Below are positions 14,863 through 64,000 of a stretch of DNA of 64,000 nt, in pieces. The translations under genes and the position numbers were made by a program. Position 1 is the first letter of the stretch. The number at the start of each line of letters is the position of its first letter. The notes beneath the pieces are model-generated. The model saw nothing but the letters and a program-made list of their open reading frames with translations, searched no databases and was not told the DNA's origin. Origin of the DNA: Roseateles sp. (GTDB taxonomy: Bacteria; Pseudomonadota; Gammaproteobacteria; Burkholderiales; Burkholderiaceae_C); NCBI GenBank assembly GCA_016790285.1, contig JAEUPJ010000050.1, positions 62,001 through 126,000 of the forward strand, in the 5' to 3' direction.

Positions 14863-16049
14863 AGCTTGCCGGCCGGCTCGATCGCATCGAGCCCTTCTAC
14901 GTGATGGAACTGGCCAAGGCCGCTGCCCGCATGGCGGCCAGCCCGGCCTGCGACCCTGCGCGAGGGGGCCGGCGCATGATCCGGCTGAATGTCGGCGAGC
15001 CCGACTTCGGCGCCGCCCCGGCCGTGCGCGAGGCCGTGGCACGCATCGCCCAGGGCCCCACGCCCTACACCGACTCCCTCGGCCTGCCCGCCCTGCGCGA
15101 AGCCATCTCGCGCTGGTATGGCGAGCGTTTCGGCCTGGCCATCGGGCCGGAGCGCATCGCCATCACGGCTGGCGCCTCCGCCGGGCTGCAGCTCGCCTGC
15201 CTCGCGCTCTTCGAGCGGGGCGACGAGGTGCTGATGCCCGACCCCTGCTATCCCTGCAACCGCCACTTCGTGTCGGCCACCGACGCCACGCCCCGGCTGC
15301 TGCCCACCGGCCCGGCGGAGCGCTTCCAGCTGGACGGCGCGCAGGTGCGGCAAGCCTGGACGGACGCCACCCGTGGCGTGCTGCTGGCCTCGCCCAGCAA
15401 CCCGACCGGCACCTCCATCGCGCCCGAGGTGCTGGCCGACATCGCCGACTTCGTGCGCGAGCGCGGCGGCGTGACCGTGGTCGACGAGATCTACCTGCCG
15501 CTGAGCTACGAGGCCCACTTCGGCCACTCCGCGCTCGGCCTGCCGGGCGGCCTGGGCGACGACATCGTCTCGGTCAACAGCTTCTCCAAGTACTTCGGCA
15601 TGACGGGCTGGCGGCTGGGCTGGCTGGTGCTGCCGCCCGCGCTGGTGCCCGCCATCGAGCGACTGGCGCAGAACTTCTACATCTGCCCGTCCACGCTGTC
15701 TCAGATGGCCGCGCTGGCCGCCTTCGAGCCCGACTCGATCGCCGAATTCGAGCGCCGCCGCGCCGTGCTGAAGGCGCGCCGTGACTACATCGTCGGCGCG
15801 CTGGGCGGCCTGGGCCTCACGGTGCCCGTCGCGCCCGATGGCGCCTTCTACGCCTGGATGGACGTGAGCCGCCATCACGCGGACAGCTGGGCCTTCGCCC
15901 ACGAGTTGCTGGACAAGGCCCAGGTCGCCCTCACCCCGGGCCGCGACTTCGGCGTGGCCGAGCCGCAGCGCTTCATGCGGCTGTCCTTCGCGTCGTCGAT
16001 GGAAGACCTCGAAGAAGCCGTGCACCGGCTGCGCGGGGTGCTGGCATGA
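14859..16049 (+). CDS. Class I/II PLP-dependent aminotransferase
   Basis: 396 residues, fold type I. The PLP lysine is K244 in [16 protein letters not shown]; other landmarks are [30 protein letters not shown] and the substrate-carboxylate Arg in [10 protein letters not shown]. The substrate cannot be fixed from sequence; relatives are annotated as aspartate or alanine/valine-type aminotransferases. It overlaps nusB and ybgC by 4 bp each, so it is part of the same transcript. Confidence 0.9.
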
Positions 16050-16444
16050 GTCACTTCCAGTTCCCGGTGCGCGTGTACTGGGAGGACACCGATGCCGGCG
16101 GCATCGTGTTCTATGCCAACTACCTGAAGTTCTTCGAACGCGCCCGCACCGAGTGGCTGCGCGCCGCCGGCGTCGAGCAACACCAGCTGCGCGAGGACAC
16201 CGGCGTCATGTTCGTCGTGGCCGACACGCGGCTGCGCTACGTGGCGCCCGCAAGGCTGGACGACCTGCTCACCATCACGGTGGACCCCGAACCCGCCGGC
16301 CGCGCCAGCCTTGTCGTGCGCCAGCGCGCGCTGCGCGGCGACACGCTGCTGTGTGAAGGCGAGATCCGCATCGGCTGCGTGCGCGCCGACGACCTCAAAC
16401 CCCAACGCCTGCCCGACACCGTCGTGGCAGCGATCACCGCATGA
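16046..16444 (+). CDS. ybgC: Tol-Pal-associated acyl-CoA thioesterase YbgC
   Basis: 132 residues with a 4-hydroxybenzoyl-CoA-thioesterase hot-dog fold. The active-site motif YWEDTDAGGIVFYANYLKF contains the catalytic Asp. YbgC hydrolyses short-chain acyl-CoA or acyl-ACP at the inner membrane and is genetically linked to tol-pal. It overlaps tolQ by 4 bp. Confidence 0.95.
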   Translation: MSHFQFPVRVYWEDTDAGGIVFYANYLKFFERARTEWLRAAGVEQHQLREDTGVMFVVADTRLRYVAPARLDDLLTITVDPEPAGRASLVVRQRALRGDTLLCEGEIRIGCVRADDLKPQRLPDTVVAAITA

Positions 16445-17118
16445 ACCAAGACCTCTCCATCGTCTCCCTGATCCTGCACGCCAGCTTCGCGGTGCAGCTC
16501 GTCATCGCGGGCCTGCTGCTCGTGTCGCTCGCGAGCTGGAGCGTCATCTTCGGCAAGCTCATCGGCCTGGGCCAGATCAAGCGCCGCAACGACGCCTTCG
16601 AGGCCGAGTTCTGGAGCGGCAAGAACCTCAACGACCTCTACCATTCGGTGGGCAACCGCACGGATGGCGCGCCGCTGGAGCGCATCTTCGCGTCGGGCAT
16701 GCGCGAGTTCCTGAAGCTGCGCGAGAAGCGCGTGAGCGACGCGAGCGCCTTGCTGGACGCCGCACGCCGGGCCATGCGCGCGAGCTTCCAGCGCGAACTC
16801 GACGCGATGGAGAGCAACCTGTCCTTCCTGGCCTCGGTCGGCTCGGTGTCGCCCTACGTGGGCCTGTTCGGCACCATCTGGGGGATCATGCACGCCTTCG
16901 TCGGCCTGTCCAACCTGACGCAGGTCACGCTGGCCACGGTGGCCCCGGGCATCGCCGAGGCGCTGGTGGCCACGGCCATCGGCCTCTTTGCCGCCATCCC
17001 GGCCGTGCTGGCCTACAACCGCTTCGCGCGCCAGATCGACCGCACGGCGATCACGCTGGAGACCTTCATTGAGGAGTTCTCCAACATCCTGCAACGCAAC
17101 GCAAGCACGCACCCCTGA
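16441..17118 (+). CDS. tolQ: Tol-Pal proton channel subunit TolQ
   Basis: 225 residues, MotA/TolQ/ExbB family with three membrane segments: about 12-40 (FAVQLVIAGLLLVSLASWSV), about 130-160 (SVGSVSPYVGLFGTIWGIM) and about 165-195 (GIAEALVATAIGLFAAIPAV). With TolR it forms the proton-driven motor that energises TolA for outer-membrane constriction at division. It shares its last base with the first base of tolR. Confidence 0.97.
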   Translation: MNQDLSIVSLILHASFAVQLVIAGLLLVSLASWSVIFGKLIGLGQIKRRNDAFEAEFWSGKNLNDLYHSVGNRTDGAPLERIFASGMREFLKLREKRVSDASALLDAARRAMRASFQRELDAMESNLSFLASVGSVSPYVGLFGTIWGIMHAFVGLSNLTQVTLATVAPGIAEALVATAIGLFAAIPAVLAYNRFARQIDRTAITLETFIEEFSNILQRNASTHP

Positions 17119-17552
17119 TGGCTGCCGTCAACGCCCGGGGCGGCCGTCGGCGCCGCACGATGAACGAGATCAACATGGTCCCGTTCATCGACGTGATGCT
17201 GGTGCTGCTCATCATCTTCATGGTCAGCGCGCCGCTGATCACCACCGGCCTCGTGGACCTGCCCAGCGTCGGCAAGAGCCGCCAGCAGCCGGAGCACGTC
17301 ATCCAGGTCATCGTGGGCACTGATGAAAAGCTCAAGATCAAGATCGACCAGCTCGAACCCGAGTCCATCCCGATGAACCGGCTCGCCGAGCGCGTCAAGA
17401 AGGGCCAGGGCAAGGACGCCACCAGCCCGGTCGTGATCTCGGCCGACAAGAACGTCAAGTACGAAGCCGTCGTGCAGGTCATGGACACCCTGCAGCGCGC
17501 CGGCATCCAGCGCGTGGGCCTGGCCGTGAAGAGCGGCGCTGCGTCGAACTGA
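17118..17552 (+). CDS. tolR: Tol-Pal motor subunit TolR
   Basis: 144 residues, ExbD/TolR family. A single N-terminal membrane helix MVPFIDVMLVLLIIFMVS carries the proton-conducting Asp; a periplasmic domain follows (VVISADKNVKYEAVVQVMD). It pairs with TolQ. The start overlaps the tolQ stop and its stop overlaps tolA. Confidence 0.96.
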   Translation: MAAVNARGGRRRRTMNEINMVPFIDVMLVLLIIFMVSAPLITTGLVDLPSVGKSRQQPEHVIQVIVGTDEKLKIKIDQLEPESIPMNRLAERVKKGQGKDATSPVVISADKNVKYEAVVQVMDTLQRAGIQRVGLAVKSGAASN

Positions 17553-18454
17553 TGGCTGCAGCCACCCTGCGTCCGCCGGAAGCGGCCGGCATCGGCCGGG
17601 GCCTCGTGCTGGCCCTGGTTGCGCACGGCCTGCTGATCCTGGCGCTCACCTACGGCCTGCATTGGCGCAGCGACAACTCGGCGGCCTTCGAGGCCGAGCT
17701 GTGGTCTGCCGTGCCGCAGGTGGCCGCGCCGCGCGAGGAAGCCCCGCCGGAGCCGGAGCCCGAAGCGCCCAAGCCCGACCTGAAGGCCGCGCAGCAGCGC
17801 GCCCAGCAGGAGGCGGCCGAGCAGCAACAGCAGCGCGACGCCGAGATCGCGATCGCCAAGGAGAAGAAGCGCAAGGAAGAGAAGGCCCGCGAGGACGCGG
17901 CCCGGCTCGAGCGCGAGAAGGCGGCCAAGGAAAGAGAAGCCAAGGAGAAGGCGGCCAAGGACGCCAAGGACAAGGACGCCAAGGACAAGGACGCCAAGGA
18001 CAAGGCCGCCAAGGAAGAGCAGGAGCGCAAGAAGGCGCTGGACGCCAAGGCGGCCAAGGAAGCCAAGGACACCAAGGAGGCCGATGCCCGCCGCGAGGCC
18101 CTGCGTCAGGAGAACCTGCGCCGCATCCAGGGCATGGCCGGCGGCACGCCGGGCTCCACGGGCGCGGCCGCCCAGAACTCGGCGCCGTCAGCGGGCTACG
18201 CGGGCCGCATCAAGGGCAAGATCCGCCCGCTCATCATCTACTCGGACGACGGCTCGGCCAACCCGACGGCGGAAGTCCAGGTCACGCTCGGTCCCGATGG
18301 CCGCATCCTCGGCACCAAGGTGCTCAAGGCCAGCCCCGACGCCGACTGGGACCGCGCGGTGCTGCGCGCCATCGAGAAGGCCGAGACGCTGCCGCGCGAC
18401 GTCGACGGGCGGGTGCCACCCGTGCTGATCCTGACCTTCAGGCCGCGCGAATGA
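17552..18454 (+). CDS. tolA: Cell-envelope protein TolA
   Basis: 300 residues. One membrane helix (about 14-36), a Pro/Glu-rich stretch, then a long Ala/Lys/Glu/Asp helical domain (about 85-200) with tandem AKDKDAKDKDAKDK repeats, and a C-terminal TonB-like domain (about 220-300, ending VLILTFRPRE). TolA spans the periplasm between TolQR and TolB/Pal. Unusually, tolB and pal do not follow: the 3' end overlaps the convergent bufD gene by 17 bp. Confidence 0.93.
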   Translation: MAAATLRPPEAAGIGRGLVLALVAHGLLILALTYGLHWRSDNSAAFEAELWSAVPQVAAPREEAPPEPEPEAPKPDLKAAQQRAQQEAAEQQQQRDAEIAIAKEKKRKEEKAREDAARLEREKAAKEREAKEKAAKDAKDKDAKDKDAKDKAAKEEQERKKALDAKAAKEAKDTKEADARREALRQENLRRIQGMAGGTPGSTGAAAQNSAPSAGYAGRIKGKIRPLIIYSDDGSANPTAEVQVTLGPDGRILGTKVLKASPDADWDRAVLRAIEKAETLPRDVDGRVPPVLILTFRPRE

Positions 18455-18920
18455 AGCGGTCCACCGACCAGCGGCCCGAGCCCCACAGCAGGATCACGAG
18501 CGCCAGCACGCCCCACAAGGTGTGCTGAGCCTCAGCGGCCGGCGAGAAGTCGTCCGCCGCCAGTGACAGTGCCGCCATCAGGTTCACGACGAAGAGCCCC
18601 GCCCCGGCGAACCGCCCGGCCAGGCCCAGCACCAGCAACACCGGCAGCACGAGCTCGCCGGCCGTGCCCATGTAGGCGGCCAGCACCGGCGGCAGCAGCG
18701 GCACCTGGTAGACGTCGTTGAAGAGGGCCAGGGTCGACGACCAGTCGCGCAGCTTGGTCAGCCCCGACAGGAAGAACACCTGCGCCACGTACAGCCGCGC
18801 CACCAGCAGCGCGAGGGACTGCGCGTGGCTGGCCACGGCGTCCAGCGGCGCAGGCAGCCGGGTGGGCTGCAGGCCGGGGTCGGTGAAGGTGCGCAGGGCG
18901 CTGGAGAGCAGAGCTTTCAT
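18438..18920 (-). CDS. bufD: DoxX-family membrane protein of the bufferin operon (BufD-type)
   Basis: 160 residues with four hydrophobic segments, DoxX pattern: VARLYVAQVFFLSGLTKL, ELVLPVLLVLGLAGRFAG, GLFVVNLMAALSLAAD, LWGVLALVILLWGSG. Many bufferin operons carry a DoxX gene as fourth member; its role is not settled, perhaps redox or membrane-linked handling of the modified peptide or metal. ATG 18920 overlaps the bufC stop by 4 bp. The 3' end overlaps tolA antiparallel by 17 bp. The symbol is by position and family. Confidence 0.82.
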   Translation of the reverse strand: MKALLSSALRTFTDPGLQPTRLPAPLDAVASHAQSLALLVARLYVAQVFFLSGLTKLRDWSSTLALFNDVYQVPLLPPVLAAYMGTAGELVLPVLLVLGLAGRFAGAGLFVVNLMAALSLAADDFSPAAEAQHTLWGVLALVILLWGSGRWSVDRFIRAA

Positions 18921-19615
18921 GGGGTCGTGTTCGGGTTCGGTGGCGTGGCCCTGACTGCTTGCAGCCAGGCGTTCTGCAGCGCGGCTTGCAGCCACGCTCC
19001 GAAATCGAAGTCGACTTCAGCGCCGGAACCTTTCACTGCCGCGCGTTCAAGCGCAACGCCGAGGTCGGCGCCAGACAGCACCGCGTCGAAGAACGCCGCC
19101 TCGACGGCCGGTAAGGCCTGCCATTCGCCGCGCCAGCGCGAGCGCCACACCAGCACCGCGCCCTCACGCTGCGCCAGCAGCCGCACGGCCGGGCGCAGCA
19201 CCAGCCAGAGCGAGTCCGGTGCCGTGGTGCCCAGCAGCTGCAGCGACTCAGCATCCAGCGCCGCGTCAGCCGAGCGTTCGGCCTCGTGCACCGCCCAGTC
19301 CAGGCGCGCCAGGTCCGGCAGGCCGGAGGCTTCGCCGGCACGCTCGACGAGAAATGGTGCAAGACCCGCGCCCCAGTCGCCGAGGTCGCCGCTGCGCGGT
19401 GGGTCGTGGCGCCAGTACGTCCAGGCCAGCGACGCGAATTCGTCCTCGCCCAGCTCGGCGCGCAGCCGCTCGAAGGCCACGCCCAGCGCCTGTGCAGACA
19501 GGAACCGCAGGTTGTTGCGGTAGACCTCCACGCCGCGGTCAGCGCCCCGCAGGCCCACGGGCGCCGGGCCGCGGCCGAGCACGGCGTCGACGAAGGCCTG
19601 TTGCTCGGTCTTCAT
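18917..19615 (-). CDS. bufC: DUF2063 partner protein of the MNIO maturase (BufC-type)
   Basis: 232 residues. The N-terminal domain (about 1-95) has the DUF2063 pattern: [14 protein letters not shown], then [22 protein letters not shown] and [13 protein letters not shown]. The C-terminal half is beta-rich with aromatic residues ([19 protein letters not shown]). In bufferin pathways BufC is thought to recognise the precursor and deliver it to BufB. It overlaps both neighbours by ATGA, so synthesis should be coupled. It is often mis-annotated as DNA-binding. Confidence 0.85.
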
Positions 19616-20463
19616 GGTTGCACCGCCCTCGCCCGCTCGGCCTCGGACAGCAGCACGGCAAGATCGGGCACGTCGGTGTCCCACTCGATGAGGGTCGGCA
19701 CGGCACCGAAGCGCCGCACGGCATGCGCGTAGACGCGCCAGACTTCCTCGCGCACCCGGCTGCCATGGTCGTCGATGACCCAACCATCGTCGCGTTCGCA
19801 GTGCCCGGCGAGATGGATCTCGCCAACGCTGCCCGGGCGGATGGCGTCCACCCAGCGCATGGCCTCGGCCGCGGCGGCGTCGGGCGCCAGGCCATCGTTG
19901 CGCGCGTTCACGAAGAGGTTGTTCACGTCCAACAGCAGGCCGCAGCCACTGGCGGCCGTCAGGGCGTTGAAGAACTCGGGCTCGGCCAGCGTGTCGCCGG
20001 CCCAGCCGACATAGGCGCTGAGGTTCTCCACCAGCATGCGGCGGCCCAGGCGCTGCTGCACCTGGTCTACGTGCCGGCGCATCAGCGCGAGGGATTCGTC
20101 GTTGAAGGGGATGGGCAGCAGGTCTGCTGCATGGAGCCCGCTGCCCACGCGGGCAAAGCAGGCGTGGTCGGACACCCAGTCGGGTTGAACACGCTGCACG
20201 AGCCGCGCCAGGCGGGCGAGGTGCTGCTCGTCGAGCCCGGCGGCCGAGCCCAGGGCCAGGCCCACGCCATGCAGGCTGACGGGATAGGCCTCGCGCCCGG
20301 CATCGAGCACCGCGAGGCTGATGCCGCCATCGGCAAAGAAGTTCTCGCTGTGGACCTCAATGAAACCGAGCGACGGCCGCTCGGCCAGCAAGGCGTCGTA
20401 GTGCGGCTGGCGCCAGCCGATGCCCACGGGGGCAGCGGCCGGCGCCGGGGTCTTGGCGGTCAA
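19612..20463 (-). CDS. bufB: DUF692 multinuclear non-heme iron oxidase (BufB-type peptide maturase)
   Basis: 283 residues, TIM-barrel DUF692/MNIO family. Metal-ligand-type motifs are in place: [11 protein letters not shown] near residue 35, [11 protein letters not shown] near 68, SDHACFAR near 107, [10 protein letters not shown] near 145, [14 protein letters not shown] near 180 and [10 protein letters not shown] near 212, then [12 protein letters not shown] enzymes use a di- or tri-iron centre to modify Cys residues of ribosomal peptides. Sitting between a Cys peptide gene (12 bp upstream) and bufC (4-bp overlap) argues that bufA encodes its substrate. The chemistry of the product cannot be read from sequence. 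Confidence 0.88.
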
Positions 20464-20475
20464 GACCTCAGGCCA

Positions 20476-20736
20476 TCACTTGGCCGGCGTCTTGGTGACG
20501 CCACCGGCCTTCTCGCAGGTGCCCTTGGGCACGTACTTCCATTCGTTGGGGTCGTTGTCCTTCTTGGCCTGGCCGGCGCAGGAGTGGCTGCCGTTGGCGC
20601 TGGCGCAGTCGTTCTGGCCGGCCTTGGCGATGCCGAAGCACTTTTCCTTGGCGGCATCGGCAGCCTGGACCTGGGCGACGAGGCCGAGAGACAGGGCGGC
20701 AGCCAGGGCCGAGGACAGGATGACGGGGTTCTTCAT
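20476..20736 (-). CDS. bufA: Bufferin-type Cys peptide precursor (DUF2282)
   Basis: 86 residues. A Sec-type signal peptide (residues 1-25, [17 protein letters not shown] before the probable cut) is followed by a short mature peptide with four Cys: C33 ([11 protein letters not shown]), C44 (QNDCA), C53 (HSCAG) and C74 (VPKGTCEK). This is the DUF2282/BufA1 pattern. Related bufferins are reported to be modified on Cys by an MNIO enzyme and to bind copper in the periplasm. The start at 20736 gives a proper signal peptide and has GGAGA upstream. It is first in the bufABCD operon, with an ECF-type promoter element 60-90 bp upstream. Confidence 0.87.
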
Positions 20737-20797
20737 GGACAGGTCTCCAAAGGGTTGAGAGGCAAAAGGCGGCCGATGATGCGGCGGCGAGGATGAA

Positions 20798-20823
20798 GTC
20801 GCAAGCACCGGCCGAGTCCTTAC
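20798..20823 (-). promoter_or_regulatory. ECF sigma-type promoter of the bufferin operon
   Basis: On the minus strand the sequence reads GTAAGG (20823-20818), exactly 16 bp, then CGAC (20801-20798). This resembles the GTAACC-N16-CGAA site reported for Caulobacter SigF, which controls DUF2282/MNIO operons there. Transcription would start near 20791, about 55 nt before bufA. The GTAAGG box overlaps TACACT (20821-20826), a possible -10 of the divergent sigma gene, so the two promoters may interfere. Confidence 0.65.
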
Positions 20824-20849
20824 ACTGCCTTTTCCCTTTCGTCGCGACC

Positions 20850-21431
20850 ATGAGCACTGCACCGGATTTCCATCACCAGATCGAGGCCCTGCGGCCCGTG
20901 CTGCTGAAGTACGCACGGCTGCAGTTGCGCAATGCGGCATGGGCCGAAGACGCTGTCTCCGAGACCGTCCTGGCCGCCCTCGAGAAGCCCCAGGCCTTCG
21001 GCGGCGCGAGTCAACTCAAGACCTGGCTCATCGGCATCCTCAAGCACAAGCTCGTCGACCAGATCCGCAAGAACAGCCGCGAGCTGTCCACCACCGTGAC
21101 GAACGAGGACGGCGAGGACCTCGACGACCTCCTCTTCGCCGCCGACGGCCATTGGCGCGAAGCCCAGCACGACTGGGGCAACCCTGAAGACGCCCTGCGC
21201 CAGCTCGATTTCATGAAGGTGCTGGAGGCTTGCGTGGACAAGCTCCCGGGCCAGCAGGGGCGGCTCTTCATGATGCGCGAATGGCTGGAGCTGGAATCCG
21301 ACGAAATCTGTAAGGAACTCGCCATCACGCCGACCAACCTCTGGGTCATGTTGCACCGGGCCCGCCTGCGCTTGCGGGAGTGCCTGCAGATGGGCTGGTT
21401 CGGTGCAGCTGCCACTGGAGGGGCGAATTGA
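20850..21431 (+). CDS. ECF-type RNA polymerase sigma factor
   Basis: 193 residues. Region 2 spans about 10-75 ([44 protein letters not shown]), and region 4 spans about 130-185 ([40 protein letters not shown]). Start [10 protein letters not shown] is chosen because it immediately precedes region 2; no clear ribosome site is seen, and a TACACT -10 would leave a leader of about 17 nt. Divergent from bufA and followed by an anti-sigma gene, it is the probable activator of bufABCD under metal or oxidative stress. Confidence 0.92.
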
Positions 21432-21622
21432 TCAAGCCGATGATCACCTGCCGGGAGGCCACACAGCTCACGCTGCAGGCCGAAGACCGCACACTGCCGC
21501 TGGTTGAGCGGCTGTCCGTGCGGCTGCATCACCGGGTTTGCGGCAACTGCCGGCGCTTTGCACGGCAAGTGGCGCTCATGCGCCAGGCCAGCGCCCGCTG
21601 GCGGCAGTACACCGACGAATGA
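21428..21622 (+). CDS. Small zinc-finger anti-sigma factor
   Basis: About 60-64 residues with a ZAS-type motif: MITCREATQLTLQAED, then LHHRVCGNCRRF, giving H-x3-C-x2-C plus the early Cys. TTG 21428 overlaps the sigma stop and has GGAGG at good distance; ATG 21440 lacks a well-placed site, so the TTG start is preferred. No membrane segment, so it is a soluble anti-sigma factor that may release the sigma factor on metal binding or thiol oxidation. Its stop abuts the convergent pcp stop with no gap. Confidence 0.82.
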   Translation: MIKPMITCREATQLTLQAEDRTLPLVERLSVRLHHRVCGNCRRFARQVALMRQASARWRQYTDE

Positions 21623-22276: not shown

Positions 22277-22394
22277 CGCGCCCATTCTGCTGGAGTGCGA
22301 CGCGGGTCATCTGGCGGTGAGGCTGCTTGCTTTTCGATGCCAGCCCGCACGTCACCGACCTCCATAATCGACCGGATTCCATCAGCCCTTGTCC

Positions 22395-24929
22395 ATGCAC
22401 GATCCGTCCCAGCCCATTCCCTGGCCCCATGGCACAGCCGACGCACCCACCGCCGGCGCGGGCATGCCGGCTTCGGGCTTCCTGTGGCCCTGCCCGCCTT
22501 ACGTCGCCTACCCGCAACCCGAGGTGCAGCGCGGCCCGGAGGCCTGCGAGATCCTGGGCTTGAACAACAGCCGCAGCCCGGGCCAGCTGCTGCGCGTGGA
22601 TGCAGGCGAGCGCCTGGTGCACATCAACGTCCCGCCGGCACGCAACAGCATGCCGCTCAAGTTCAGCCAGTTCCGCGCCATCAAGCTGCAGCGGCCTCTG
22701 GCGGTGCCACCACGCGACAGCGTCGACCACGACTCGGCACTCAGCCTGGACCAGCGCCCGCGCACGCCCTTTCGCATCGTCTTCCAGGGCGGCGACGAGC
22801 TCAAGGGCGTCACCATCGGCCATCACCACGACACGCTCGGCCTGTTCCTCTTCCCGCCGGTCTCCGACACCGACGACTCGGTGCGGCGCGTGTTCGTTCC
22901 CCGGGAGGTGCTGACGCATTTCGAGATCGGTGAGCGCATCGGCGAGATGCTGCTGAAGGACCAACTCGTCACGACCGAGCAGCTCGCCGCCGCCGCGACG
23001 GAGCAGACCCAGCTGCGCCAGCGCCGGGTGGGCGACATCCTGGTCGAGCAGCACATCGTGACGGCCGAGCAGCTGATGCAGGCCATCGAGCAGCAGGCGC
23101 GCATGCCCATGGTGCGCATCGGCGAGGCGCTGCTGGCTCTGGAGCTGGTGACCCAGGAGCAGTTGGAGCTGGCCCTGGTGCAGCAGCGCGACGACCGCTC
23201 GGTGCCGCTGGGCGAGCTGCTGGTGCGCAAGGGCGTGATCAGCCGCGCCCAGCTGCAGTCGGCCCTGGCCCGCAAGATGGGTTACCCGGTCGTGGACGTC
23301 GAGAACTTCCCCGTCGAGCCCGACGCCGTGCGCAAGCTGCCCTACGCCGTCGCCCGCCGCCTGGAGGTCCTGCCACTCGTGCTGCGCGACGGCAAGCTCG
23401 TCGTGGCCATGGAGGACCCGACCCGGCGCGACGCCCTCGACGAGGTCGAGTTCATCACGCAGGTCAAGGTCGTGCCCACGCTCACGCGGCTCGGCACGCT
23501 GCAGTTCGCCATTCCGGCGGCGTTCGACCGCTTCGGCTCCGACGCCCTGCCGCGCGGCAACGTGGATGTCCTGCCCGACCTGCAGCCAGACTTTTCGCTG
23601 GACTCCTCCAACAAGCTCATCGAGAGCCTGGAGCGCGACAGCAGCGAGCGCGCCGGCAGCGAGGACGACTCGGCCATCGAGCAGAGCGACAACTCCCTCG
23701 TGCGCCTCATCAACACGATGATCATCGAGGCGCACGGCCAGGGCGTGTCCGACATCCACATCGAGACCTACCCCGGGCGGGAGAAGCTCAAGATCCGCTT
23801 CCGCCGCGACGGCGTGCTGCAGCCCTACCTGGAGCTGCCGCACACCTACCGCAACGCCATGATCGCCCGCATCAAGATCATGTGCGACCTCGACATCTCC
23901 GAGCGCCGCAAGCCACAGGACGGCAAGATCAATTTCGCGCGTTTCTCGGCCCAGCACCGGCTGGAGCTGCGCGTGGCGACCATCCCGACCAACAACGGCC
24001 TGGAGGACGTCGTCATGCGCCTGCTGGCCAGCAGCAAGCCCATGCCGCTGGAGCGCATCGGCCTCGCGCCGGCCAACCTGGCGGCGCTGCAGTCGGCCGT
24101 GGCGCGCCCCTACGGCATGGTGCTGTGCGTGGGCCCGACGGGTTCGGGCAAGACGACCACGCTGCACTCGGCGCTGAGCTACATCAACACGCCCGAGCGC
24201 AAGATCTGGACGGCCGAGGACCCGGTGGAAATCACGCAGGCCGGCCTGCGGCAGGTCCAGGTCAACCCGAAGATCGACTGGACCTTCGCCAAGGCGCTGC
24301 GTGCCTTCCTGCGCGCCGACCCCGACGTCATCATGGTGGGCGAGATCCGTGACCAGGAAACCGCCGAGATCGCCGTCGAGGCCTCGCTCACGGGCCACCT
24401 GGTGCTGTCCACCCTGCACACCAACAGCGCACCCGAGACGATCACGCGGCTGCTGGACATGGGCATGGACCCGTTCAACTTCGCAGACTCCCTGCTGGCC
24501 GTGCTCGCGCAGCGCCTGGTGCGGCGCAGCTGCACGGCCTGCCAGACCAGCGAGCCCATCAACGAAACCGATCTTGGCGAGCTGCTGGATGACTATCTGC
24601 ACGTTTTCCCGGCAGACGCACGCCCCTCCAAGCTCGCGCTGATGGCCGAGTGGATCAAGAATCACGGGCAGCAGGGCCGGCTCATGAAGTTCACGAGCCC
24701 CGGCTGCGCCGCCTGTGGCAACACGGGCTTCAAGGGGCGCGCCGGCCTGCACGAACTGCTCGCCGTCTCCAAGAACATCCGCCGCATGATCCAGACCGGT
24801 GCCCGCGCCGAGGAACTCCAGCACACCGCCCTCGGCGAGGGCATGCGCACGCTGCGCCAGGACGGCATCGTCAAGGTCCTGCAGGGTGTGACGACCCTGG
24901 CCGAGGTCCATGCGACGAGCAACTCCTGA
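22395..24929 (+). CDS. GspE/PilB-family ATPase with four tandem MshEN-like motifs
   Basis: 844 residues, much longer than MshE or PilB (about 570). Residues 1-170 hold a domain I do not recognise (TPFRIVFQGGDELKGVTIGH). Residues 181-300 hold four copies of an MshEN-type motif at residues 181 (RIGEMLLKDQLVTTEQL), 211 (RVGDILVEQHIVTAEQL), 241 (RIGEALLALELVTQEQL) and 271 (PLGELLVRKGVISRAQL), exactly 30 residues apart. The ATPase core follows: Walker A GPTGSGKTTT at 580, Walker B region DPDVIMVGEIRD, and zinc-type CTACQ and CAACG pairs. It is 21 bp upstream of mshE, so likely a second assembly ATPase or a c-di-GMP-responsive regulator of the MSHA pilus. Confidence 0.85.
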   Translation: MHDPSQPIPWPHGTADAPTAGAGMPASGFLWPCPPYVAYPQPEVQRGPEACEILGLNNSRSPGQLLRVDAGERLVHINVPPARNSMPLKFSQFRAIKLQRPLAVPPRDSVDHDSALSLDQRPRTPFRIVFQGGDELKGVTIGHHHDTLGLFLFPPVSDTDDSVRRVFVPREVLTHFEIGERIGEMLLKDQLVTTEQLAAAATEQTQLRQRRVGDILVEQHIVTAEQLMQAIEQQARMPMVRIGEALLALELVTQEQLELALVQQRDDRSVPLGELLVRKGVISRAQLQSALARKMGYPVVDVENFPVEPDAVRKLPYAVARRLEVLPLVLRDGKLVVAMEDPTRRDALDEVEFITQVKVVPTLTRLGTLQFAIPAAFDRFGSDALPRGNVDVLPDLQPDFSLDSSNKLIESLERDSSERAGSEDDSAIEQSDNSLVRLINTMIIEAHGQGVSDIHIETYPGREKLKIRFRRDGVLQPYLELPHTYRNAMIARIKIMCDLDISERRKPQDGKINFARFSAQHRLELRVATIPTNNGLEDVVMRLLASSKPMPLERIGLAPANLAALQSAVARPYGMVLCVGPTGSGKTTTLHSALSYINTPERKIWTAEDPVEITQAGLRQVQVNPKIDWTFAKALRAFLRADPDVIMVGEIRDQETAEIAVEASLTGHLVLSTLHTNSAPETITRLLDMGMDPFNFADSLLAVLAQRLVRRSCTACQTSEPINETDLGELLDDYLHVFPADARPSKLALMAEWIKNHGQQGRLMKFTSPGCAACGNTGFKGRAGLHELLAVSKNIRRMIQTGARAEELQHTALGEGMRTLRQDGIVKVLQGVTTLAEVHATSNS

Positions 24930-24950
24930 GCCCTGCCCTACCGACGACTG

Positions 24951-26675
24951 ATGCCTGACACCCACGACGCCGCCCCCCGTCCCAAACTGCGTCTCGGCGA
25001 CGTCCTCGTCGAGCAGCAGCTCATCTCGGCCGACCAGCTCACGCAGGCGCTGGAGCTGCAGCGCGCCACCGGCAAGAAGCTCGGGCGCATCCTGATCGAG
25101 GCCAACCTCATCACCGAGGAAGCCCTCGCCCACGTGCTGGCCCGCCAACTGCGCGCGCCCTTCGTCAACCTCAAGACGTTTCCCCTCAAGACCGAACTCG
25201 TGCGCCTCCTGCCCGAGACGCCCGCACGGCGCTTTCGGGCACTGGTGCTGGAGGAGCGCGGCGACACCCTGCTGGTGGCCATGGCCGACCCGCTGGACCT
25301 GTTCGGCTTCGACGAGCTCGCCAAGATCCTCAAGCGCCGCCTGGCCATGGCCGTGGTGGCCGACAGCCAGCTCGCCGCCGTCTACGACAAGCACTACCGG
25401 CGCAGCGACGAGATCTCGGGCCTGGCCAAGGCGCTCGAGAAGGACATTGGCGACGCGGTGGACTTCGGCACGCTGCAGGCCGCCGTGGGCCAGGAAGGCG
25501 CGCCGGTCGTGCGGCTGCTGCAGTCCGTCTTCGAGGACGCGACCCGTGCCGGCGCCTCCGACGTGCACATCGAGCCCCAGGAGGGCGACCTCGTCATCCG
25601 CAACCGCGTGGACGGCATCCTGCAGACGCTCACCCAGGCCGACAAGCGCATCGCGCCGGCCCTGGCCCAGCGTCTGAAGCTGATGGCGGGCCTCGACATT
25701 TCCGAGAAGCGCCTGCCGCAGGACGGCCGCTTCACGCTGCGGCTGTCCGACCGCACGCTGGACGTGCGCCTGTCCACCATGCCCAGCCAGTACGGCGAGT
25801 CGGTCGTCATGCGCCTGCTGGGCCAGGGCTCGGCGCTGCGCCGCCTGGGCGACATCGGCATGCCCGACGACATGCTCAAGCGCTTTCGCGAGCTGCTCGG
25901 GCGCGACGCCGGCATGATCCTCGTCACTGGCCCCACGGGCTCGGGCAAGACCTCCACCCTCTACGCGGCCCTGGCCGAGATCGACGCCGAGCAGCAGAAG
26001 ATCATCACGGTCGAGGACCCGGTCGAGTACCGGCTGCCCGGCCTCACGCAGGTGCAGGTCAACGACAAGATCGAGCTCGACTTCGCCCGCGTGCTGCGGG
26101 CCGCGCTGCGCCAGGACCCGGACGTGATCCTCGTGGGCGAAATGCGCGACGCCGAGACCGCCGAGATCGGCCTGCGCGCGGCCATCACCGGCCACCTGGT
26201 GTTGAGCACGCTGCACACCAAGGACACCGTCTCCACGCCGTTCCGCCTGCTGGACATGGGGGCGCCGCCCTTCATGGTGGCCACGTCGCTGCAGGCGGTG
26301 CTCGCCCAGCGGCTGCTGCGCGGCGTGTGCAAGCACTGCGCCGAGCCGCACATCGCCACGCCCCAGGAACAGGCCTGGGTGCACGAGGTGCAGCGCCTCA
26401 ACGGCGAGCCGCACAGCCCCGTGCAGAGCGTCAAGGGCCGCGGCTGCGCCGAATGCAACGGCACCGGCACGCAGGGGCGCCGTGGCATCTACGAGATGCT
26501 CGAGATCGACCCCGACATGGCGCTGGCCATCCAGAGGAGTGACGCGGGCGCCTTCCTCGCCGCCGCACGGCGGTCGCTGAAAGGCAAGACGCTGGCCGAC
26601 CGCAGCCTGGCACTCGTGCGCGCGGGCAAGACCTCGCTCGCCGAGGCCGTGCGCATCAGCGTGGACGCTGAATGA
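24951..26675 (+). CDS. mshE: MSHA pilus extension ATPase MshE
   Basis: 574 residues. Two N-terminal MshEN motifs (RLGDVLVEQQLISADQL from residue 14, KLGRILIEANLITEEAL from 43) match the family of c-di-GMP-binding MshE domains, though Gln or Asn replaces the usual Gly in the loop. The ATPase core has Walker A GPTGSGKTST at residue 327, DPDVILVGEMRDAETA, and Cys pairs CKHC and CAEC. MshE powers pilin polymerisation at the inner membrane. Its stop overlaps the mshG ATG by 4 bp. Confidence 0.9.
   Translation: MPDTHDAAPRPKLRLGDVLVEQQLISADQLTQALELQRATGKKLGRILIEANLITEEALAHVLARQLRAPFVNLKTFPLKTELVRLLPETPARRFRALVLEERGDTLLVAMADPLDLFGFDELAKILKRRLAMAVVADSQLAAVYDKHYRRSDEISGLAKALEKDIGDAVDFGTLQAAVGQEGAPVVRLLQSVFEDATRAGASDVHIEPQEGDLVIRNRVDGILQTLTQADKRIAPALAQRLKLMAGLDISEKRLPQDGRFTLRLSDRTLDVRLSTMPSQYGESVVMRLLGQGSALRRLGDIGMPDDMLKRFRELLGRDAGMILVTGPTGSGKTSTLYAALAEIDAEQQKIITVEDPVEYRLPGLTQVQVNDKIELDFARVLRAALRQDPDVILVGEMRDAETAEIGLRAAITGHLVLSTLHTKDTVSTPFRLLDMGAPPFMVATSLQAVLAQRLLRGVCKHCAEPHIATPQEQAWVHEVQRLNGEPHSPVQSVKGRGCAECNGTGTQGRRGIYEMLEIDPDMALAIQRSDAGAFLAAARRSLKGKTLADRSLALVRAGKTSLAEAVRISVDAE

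Positions 26676-61237: not shown

Positions 61238-64000
<2,763 letters not shown>

Follow-up and report, generated by a model that had tools for sequence, protein, structure and literature searches.

Bufferins bind copper (PMC12452194), and their chemistry and core gene set have been described (PMC12452194, PMC13097082). Here we analysed a Buf1-type bufferin operon that faces the genes of an extracytoplasmic function (ECF) sigma factor and a zinc anti-sigma factor of the ZAS type, in a 64,000-nucleotide stretch of DNA (the window; positions 62,001 to 126,000 of contig JAEUPJ010000050.1, assembly GCA_016790285.1) from a Roseateles sp. genome that is 95% complete in 107 contigs. From its promoter sequences, the operon is likely to be the Buf1 arm of a small, self-limiting and oxidant- or thiol-triggered ECF sigma regulon, which would also comprise a Buf2 operon, msrP and a TlpA-like gene.

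Related regulons are known from several bacteria. In Cupriavidus metallidurans, copper-induced gigPABT, with its four-Cys periplasmic peptide, lies divergently from rpoQ-rsqA (PMC10304878). Neisseria meningitidis sigma-E/MseR (NMB2140-2145) controls a DoxX/MNIO cluster and a methionine-sulfoxide reductase (PMC2893595, PMC3240639), with the promoter consensus GTMAGBWTT, a spacer of 12-13 and CGTCTAAH (PMC2893595). Haemophilus influenzae RpoE2/HrsE responds to hypochlorous acid (HOCl) and controls msrAB and a DoxX/MNIO cluster (PMC7907618), and in Caulobacter one ECF sigma factor, sigma-F with NrsF, governs two MNIO operons and YedY, which is of the MsrP type (PMC3511200). An anti-sigma gene served from within its sigma gene is described for Corynebacterium glutamicum, where rshA has a SigH-dependent promoter inside sigH and sigH itself is transcribed from housekeeping promoters (PMC3489674).

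The preliminary description of the locus had noted that MNIO/bufferin systems were described only recently. Novelty of the arrangement is not supported: the divergon is already in the literature for C. metallidurans (PMC10304878), as are kindred regulons of Neisseria, Haemophilus and Caulobacter, so that this type of system is a known one. The C. metallidurans gig locus likewise has genes for a four-Cys peptide, an MNIO, a DUF2063 protein and DoxX divergent from an ECF sigma/anti-sigma pair. However, its sigma factor fits another model (PRK12536, unlike NF009173 for the window), its anti-sigma factor resembles NrsF (E 6.1e-38, 130 bits, below the cut-off of 300) whereas that of the window is a ZAS protein, and a 7-kb stretch around it holds no GTAA-N16/18-CGAC. 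The window shares with Neisseria an ECF sigma factor with ZAS anti-sigma, a DoxX/MNIO cluster and a methionine-sulfoxide reductase in the regulon (as predicted for the window), and with sigma-E/RpoE2-type systems in general a small ZAS gene directly after the sigma gene and a methionine-sulfoxide reductase gene (MsrP) with a predicted sigma promoter. The predicted -35 element and overall spacing are those of Neisseria sigma-E, but the -10 reads CGAC here and CGTC there; moreover, the Neisseria genes form one co-directional, positively autoregulated operon, whereas those of the window are divergent and have no such autoregulation site. H. influenzae likewise pairs an ECF sigma factor with a ZAS protein, but its DoxX cluster lies apart from the sigma gene and msrAB takes the place of msrP. 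Caulobacter differs by its membrane anti-sigma factor NrsF and its promoter (GTAACC-N16-CGAA; ZAS and CGAC in the window). C. glutamicum belongs to another phylum and uses another promoter sequence, and the SigH-RshA passages of PMC3489674 mention no bufferin genes. Since a survey of MNIO clusters names NrsF and, in the passages of its main text used here, nowhere ZAS or zf-HC2 (PMC12452194), the ZAS branch may have been overlooked.

Genes and predicted promoters of the locus

The features to which the following sections refer are these:

20476-20736, minus strand: bufA, DUF2282/Buf1 precursor of 86 amino acids (PF10048, 92 bits against a cut-off of 22.4)
19612-20463, minus strand: bufB, bufferin maturase of the MNIO family, TTG start (NF050167 MNIO_BufB, 322.5 against 310; PF05114, 317 bits)
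18917-19615, minus strand: bufC, DUF2063 partner (PF09836, 54.3 against 27.2)
18438-18920, minus strand: doxX, DoxX membrane protein (PF07681, 60.6 against 23.6)
20850-21431, plus strand: ECF sigma gene (NF009173, 295.5 against 255)
21440-21622, plus strand: ZAS-type zinc anti-sigma gene (NF052368, 66.9 against 50)
20798-20823, minus strand: predicted ECF promoter of bufA, GTAAGG-N16-CGAC (spacing class common to 54 of 55 intergenic regions)
20821-20826, plus strand: TACACT, probable -10 of the sigma gene, presumably of housekeeping type, overlapping the bufA -35
21310-21334, plus strand: predicted in-gene promoter, GTAAGG-N15-CGAC, directed toward the anti-sigma gene (codon constraint)

The six genes and their layout, with a Buf1 operon divergent from the genes of an ECF sigma factor and an anti-sigma factor with a zinc motif, were thus borne out by family models above their cut-offs, by their coordinates and by conservation, and with a DUF2282 precursor, an MNIO maturase and a DUF2063 partner in one operon the locus is by gene content a Buf1 gene cluster. 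Two of the gene starts had to be moved. For the sigma gene, ATG 20850 is a more likely start than 20793; for the anti-sigma protein, of about 60 residues, the start is ATG 21440 (or TTG 21428) instead of 21380. bufA and bufB are 12 nt apart, while bufB/bufC and bufC/doxX overlap by 4 nt each. BufA, the sole PF10048 match in the whole genome, has the expected four Cys and, as read by eye, a hydrophobic signal-like N-terminus; 49 of 56 relatives carry the strict four-Cys motif and the remaining 7 likewise have four Cys. Against the Protein Data Bank (PDB), BufB matched 3bww (E 1.2e-33) and BufC had no clear match by sequence. DoxX has no Cys residue and scored 55 bits with the HvfX model NF050144, below its cut-off of 80. 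The genome holds 13 matches to NF009173, of which the locus sigma factor alone exceeds the cut-off. The anti-sigma motif, Cys4-x25-His-x3-Cys-x2-Cys, matches the ZAS motif quoted in PMC7907618 and was found in 78 of 78 relatives read (2 of 80 loci gave no anti-sigma match); NrsF is not among the family-model matches of the locus protein.

Predicted overlapping and gene-embedded promoters

Toward bufA, AGTGTAA followed by CGAC was found in 54 of 55 bufA-sigma regions (54 loci and the window), the lone exception (L062) having bufA about 700 bp away. The -35 reads GTAAGG at 49 of 54 sites, and the spacer after these six letters is 16 nt in 42 and 15 nt in 12. GTAAGG-N15/16-CGAC occurs twice in the window against 0.05 expected. 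This pattern was drawn from the bufA sites and then counted there, while the msrP, buf2 and codon tests below are separate; throughout, the loci are related by descent, and thinning (at 85% protein identity) was applied in the first sigma set only.

AGT precedes GTAA at 54 of 54 bufA sites with the motif, whereas the msrP sites show it in 0 of 39 cases and the buf2-type sites in 1 of 17; the bufA sites were anchored on AGT, the trans sites were found without requiring it, and L062 lacks it. On the other strand these letters form part of TACACT. Of 53 buf-adjacent loci, 51 carry this hexamer 9-51 nt upstream of the chosen sigma start, and 9 of 27 other loci carry it before the sigma gene. The CC that the bufA -35 requires has been retained in 46 of those 51 loci versus 1 of these 9. 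Because AGT/TACACT and CC go with bufA adjacency, the bufA -35 and the sigma-gene -10 seem to be fused. TACACT is probably the -10 of the sigma gene, with no -35 partner evident upstream of that gene. Positive autoregulation of the sigma gene was also considered and rejected: GTCAG-type sites upstream of and directed toward it numbered 4 in 141 loci, none of them in the window, and were read as chance.

The second copy of the predicted promoter in the window falls in the region-4 codons of the sigma gene, with its end 105 nt upstream of the anti-sigma ATG. It was at first taken for a coding artefact, a reading dropped after tests of synonymous codons. In a thinned set of 51 out of 81 sequences, the Cys of the site is encoded by TGT in 38 and by TGC in 13, versus 17 and 122 for the remaining Cys positions of the gene (p 5e-16). 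Codon 161, which supplies the -10 with its CG, reads xCG in 49 of 51 regardless of the residue; elsewhere in the sigma gene, 653 of 2093 Pro/Ser/Thr/Ala codons are xCG, and before ACC/ACG in other long frames the figure is 778 of 2093. No other codon of the gene scores higher than codon 161 by observed minus expected synonymous identity. The pattern recurred in 60 further, more distant loci (39-63% identity), with TGT 43, TGC 13 and xCG in 45 of 52; here the two halves of the site were both kept in 41, both lost in 15 and present singly in 4. The site is in frame in 98 of 141 loci, with a median of 96 nt (n = 95) from its end to the anti-sigma start.

Several results weigh against a promoter at this position. 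The nine-codon stretch as a whole is unexceptional (0.098 versus a mean of 0.055, sd 0.052), and the site is absent from 43 of the 141 loci. In other long frames, Cys codons before AAG are TGT in 16 and TGC in 28; because TGT before AAG is thus commoner in other genes too, the TGT contrast is weaker (p 4e-5), and the -35 half of the in-gene claim is weaker than the -10 half. The same excess of TGT would fit a site that is no promoter at all, in which a Shine-Dalgarno-like pause or codon-pair habits preserve TGTAAGGA and codon 161 is kept by chance; TAAGGA resembles a Shine-Dalgarno sequence. This account is unlikely, though less so than the other alternatives that we weighed: it leaves unexplained both the xCG at codon 161 in 49 of 51 sequences, whatever the residue, and the retention (41) or loss (15) of the two halves together rather than singly (4).

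The occurrence of the site varied with gene arrangement in a survey of 145 loci. It was present in 48 of 58 loci with a divergent MNIO gene, in 11 of 13 with MNIO downstream and co-directional, in 1 of 4 with MNIO convergent and in 37 of 63 in which no MNIO was found. With MNIO upstream and co-directional it was present in 1 of 7 (L075, with MNIO about 4 kb away), a small class, and the lineages surveyed are related. One locus of the same order has the Neisseria gene order (L306): doxX, an EGKCG-repeat peptide, MNIO, sigma (36% identity) and ZAS genes run co-directionally, preceded by GTAAGTTTT...CGTCTAA. The chances seem to us evenly balanced that, across the order, an in-gene promoter for the anti-sigma factor and a fused -10/-35 beside bufferin operons make a self-limiting, pulse-like switch tying copper-peptide synthesis to methionine-sulfoxide repair, while co-directional, Neisseria-like operons use positive feedback and have no in-gene promoter. 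In our searches of open-licence papers we found neither the -35/TACACT overlap nor the in-gene promoter described for this system. If a codon-embedded promoter is indeed conserved across an order, it would show cleanly how a protein code and a regulatory code can share the same letters.

Probable regulon and trigger

In the preliminary description, the whole circuit was contained in 3.2 kb. This is not supported, as the same promoter sequence precedes Buf2, MsrP and TlpA-like genes elsewhere in the genome. TGTAAG-N17/18-CGAC has four matches in the whole genome, all 35-113 nt before gene starts: those of bufA, of the BufA2 precursor gene (Buf2; NF050166, 87.9 against a cut-off of 60) that belongs to another MNIO operon, on contig C11, of the periplasmic methionine-sulfoxide reductase MsrP (NF003767, 477 against 207) and of a TlpA-like gene whose best model is below cut-off. 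In 20 relatives, TGTAAGGA-N14/15-CGAC gave 58 matches across 19 genomes, compared with 12 for the control. The loci read (L103-L132, L137-L149) comprise bufA, the in-gene site, 11 Buf2 precursors, MsrP, an MsrB and genes resembling those of TlpA or thioredoxin, with the last three named by eye.

The msrP site was then followed by orthology. In 20 of 20 sigma-bearing relatives the best MsrP match has GTAA[GC]-N16/17-CGAC upstream, at a distance of 53-106 nt from where the match begins; one more MsrP locus, the 21st (L171), is a paralogue and has no site. Among 20 genomes in which the sigma gene has no adjacent bufA, 16 have MsrP and 15 of these 16 the site (one CGTC); the sixteenth match (L194) is truncated. 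Of 150 genomes of the order, 72 have the sigma gene at E 1e-30 and 78 do not, and in the 20 listed among the 78, MsrP was present in 11 (12 loci) and the site in 0 of 12. The site also precedes 16 of 17 Buf2-type MNIO operons (57-92% identity to the C11 MNIO; 18 of 38 MNIO places were read) and 5 of 7 TlpA-like loci.

On the other side of the balance, a reversed control pattern gave 5 genome matches against the 4 of TGTAAG-N17/18-CGAC; because the control count is no lower, the case for that pattern rests on the positions of its matches. A looser pattern gave 10 matches, six of them unexamined, against 45 for its control. Fourteen sites in the relatives precede genes with no obvious connection to the system. 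Of the 11 sigma-negative genomes with MsrP, just 2 belong to the same family, so that genome relatedness is a partial confounder of the comparison, and in 14 more distant sigma-positive genomes, of which 9 have MsrP, the exact site was found in 4, GTAAT in 2 and no site in 3.

A metal-centred trigger is not favoured, since the best conserved trans target found is MsrP and the ZAS motif of the anti-sigma factor is of the redox type; metals can still act through thiols. A dedicated copper circuit, with an anti-sigma factor that senses copper, a sigma factor that mainly serves the adjacent bufferin operon and MsrP as a side target, would agree with the binding of copper by bufferins (PMC12452194), with the copper induction of gig in C. 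metallidurans (PMC10304878) and with a promoter common to two bufferin operons. We think it improbable, because, in genomes whose sigma gene has no bufA neighbour, 15 of 16 MsrP matches retain the site, and because the ZAS relatives MseR and HrsE belong, in the papers cited above, to peroxide- or HOCl-linked regulons with methionine-sulfoxide reductases. That another ECF sigma factor reads these promoters and the adjacent one has other targets is very unlikely: although 12 other proteins of the genome match this sigma model more weakly, the MsrP site tracks the locus sigma gene (20 of 20 and 15 of 16 versus 0 of 12, partly confounded by relatedness), and predicted promoter copies adjoin that gene and lie within it.

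The system is most likely an oxidant- or thiol-stress switch that would make bufferins and repair methionines. Its genes, promoter sequences, co-occurrence and codon constraint are direct observations, and from them we infer that the sigma factor of the locus reads these promoters. This factor, related to Neisseria sigma-E and Haemophilus RpoE2, would be held at rest by the small ZAS protein until oxidants, or copper by way of thiol oxidation or zinc displacement, disarm the latter. Free sigma would then read GTAAG-N15/16-CGAC before bufA-bufB-bufC-doxX, the Buf2 operon, msrP and the TlpA-like gene. By analogy with homologues, BufB and BufC would modify Cys residues of BufA, perhaps to thiooxazole as expected of a Buf1 cluster; BufA would be exported and bind copper, and MsrP would mend oxidised methionines. 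Polymerase positioned on the bufA -35 would cover the TACACT of the sigma gene, and the sigma-dependent in-gene promoter would add anti-sigma factor; the -35/TACACT overlap and the constrained in-gene promoter copy thus suggest a self-limiting response. By means of a redox-type anti-sigma factor, such a regulon would link MsrP with both types of bufferin.

Two further observations concern sites of this kind. In 4 of 20 relatives (L117, L131, L142, L148), the pattern occurs 20-40 nt before a gene that by eye is LysR-like, either by chance or as a further member of the regulon. In a Roseateles puraquae genome (L007), a Buf1-like four-Cys precursor about 475 nt before an MNIO match (L237) has a predicted GTAAGA...CGTC promoter, with the -10 of the Neisseria type.

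Surroundings of the locus

bufA is divergent from and within 900 bp of the sigma gene in 54 of 80 sigma loci and not so in 26, a pairing more frequent than chance. One flank of the block carries TolQ/ExbB-, TolR/ExbD- and TonB-like genes, the other a pyroglutamyl-peptidase gene and two GspE-like genes. Of the 80 sigma loci, 43 have the TolQ-like gene, 33 the peptidase gene and 37 the first of the GspE-like genes, and because these flanking genes recur, the block is taken to be an old resident and not a recent arrival. Its closest relatives are from Roseateles/Pelomonas, unclassified Burkholderiales and one metagenome-assembled genome labelled Methylotenera; a plasmid search with the sigma factor returned 340 records, every one below 60% identity.

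A third MNIO gene of the same genome (contig C107, 9112-11601; NF050167, 328 against 310) has partner-like and HvfX/DoxX-like genes alongside and lies at a contig end, beyond which any precursor and promoter would fall. In the window, two successive GspE/PilB-type ATPase genes, each with an MshEN domain, occupy 22389-26675. At 16046-18454, thioesterase, TolQ-, TolR- and TolA-like genes run into doxX from the opposite strand, the two gene ends overlapping by 17 nt (18438-18454).

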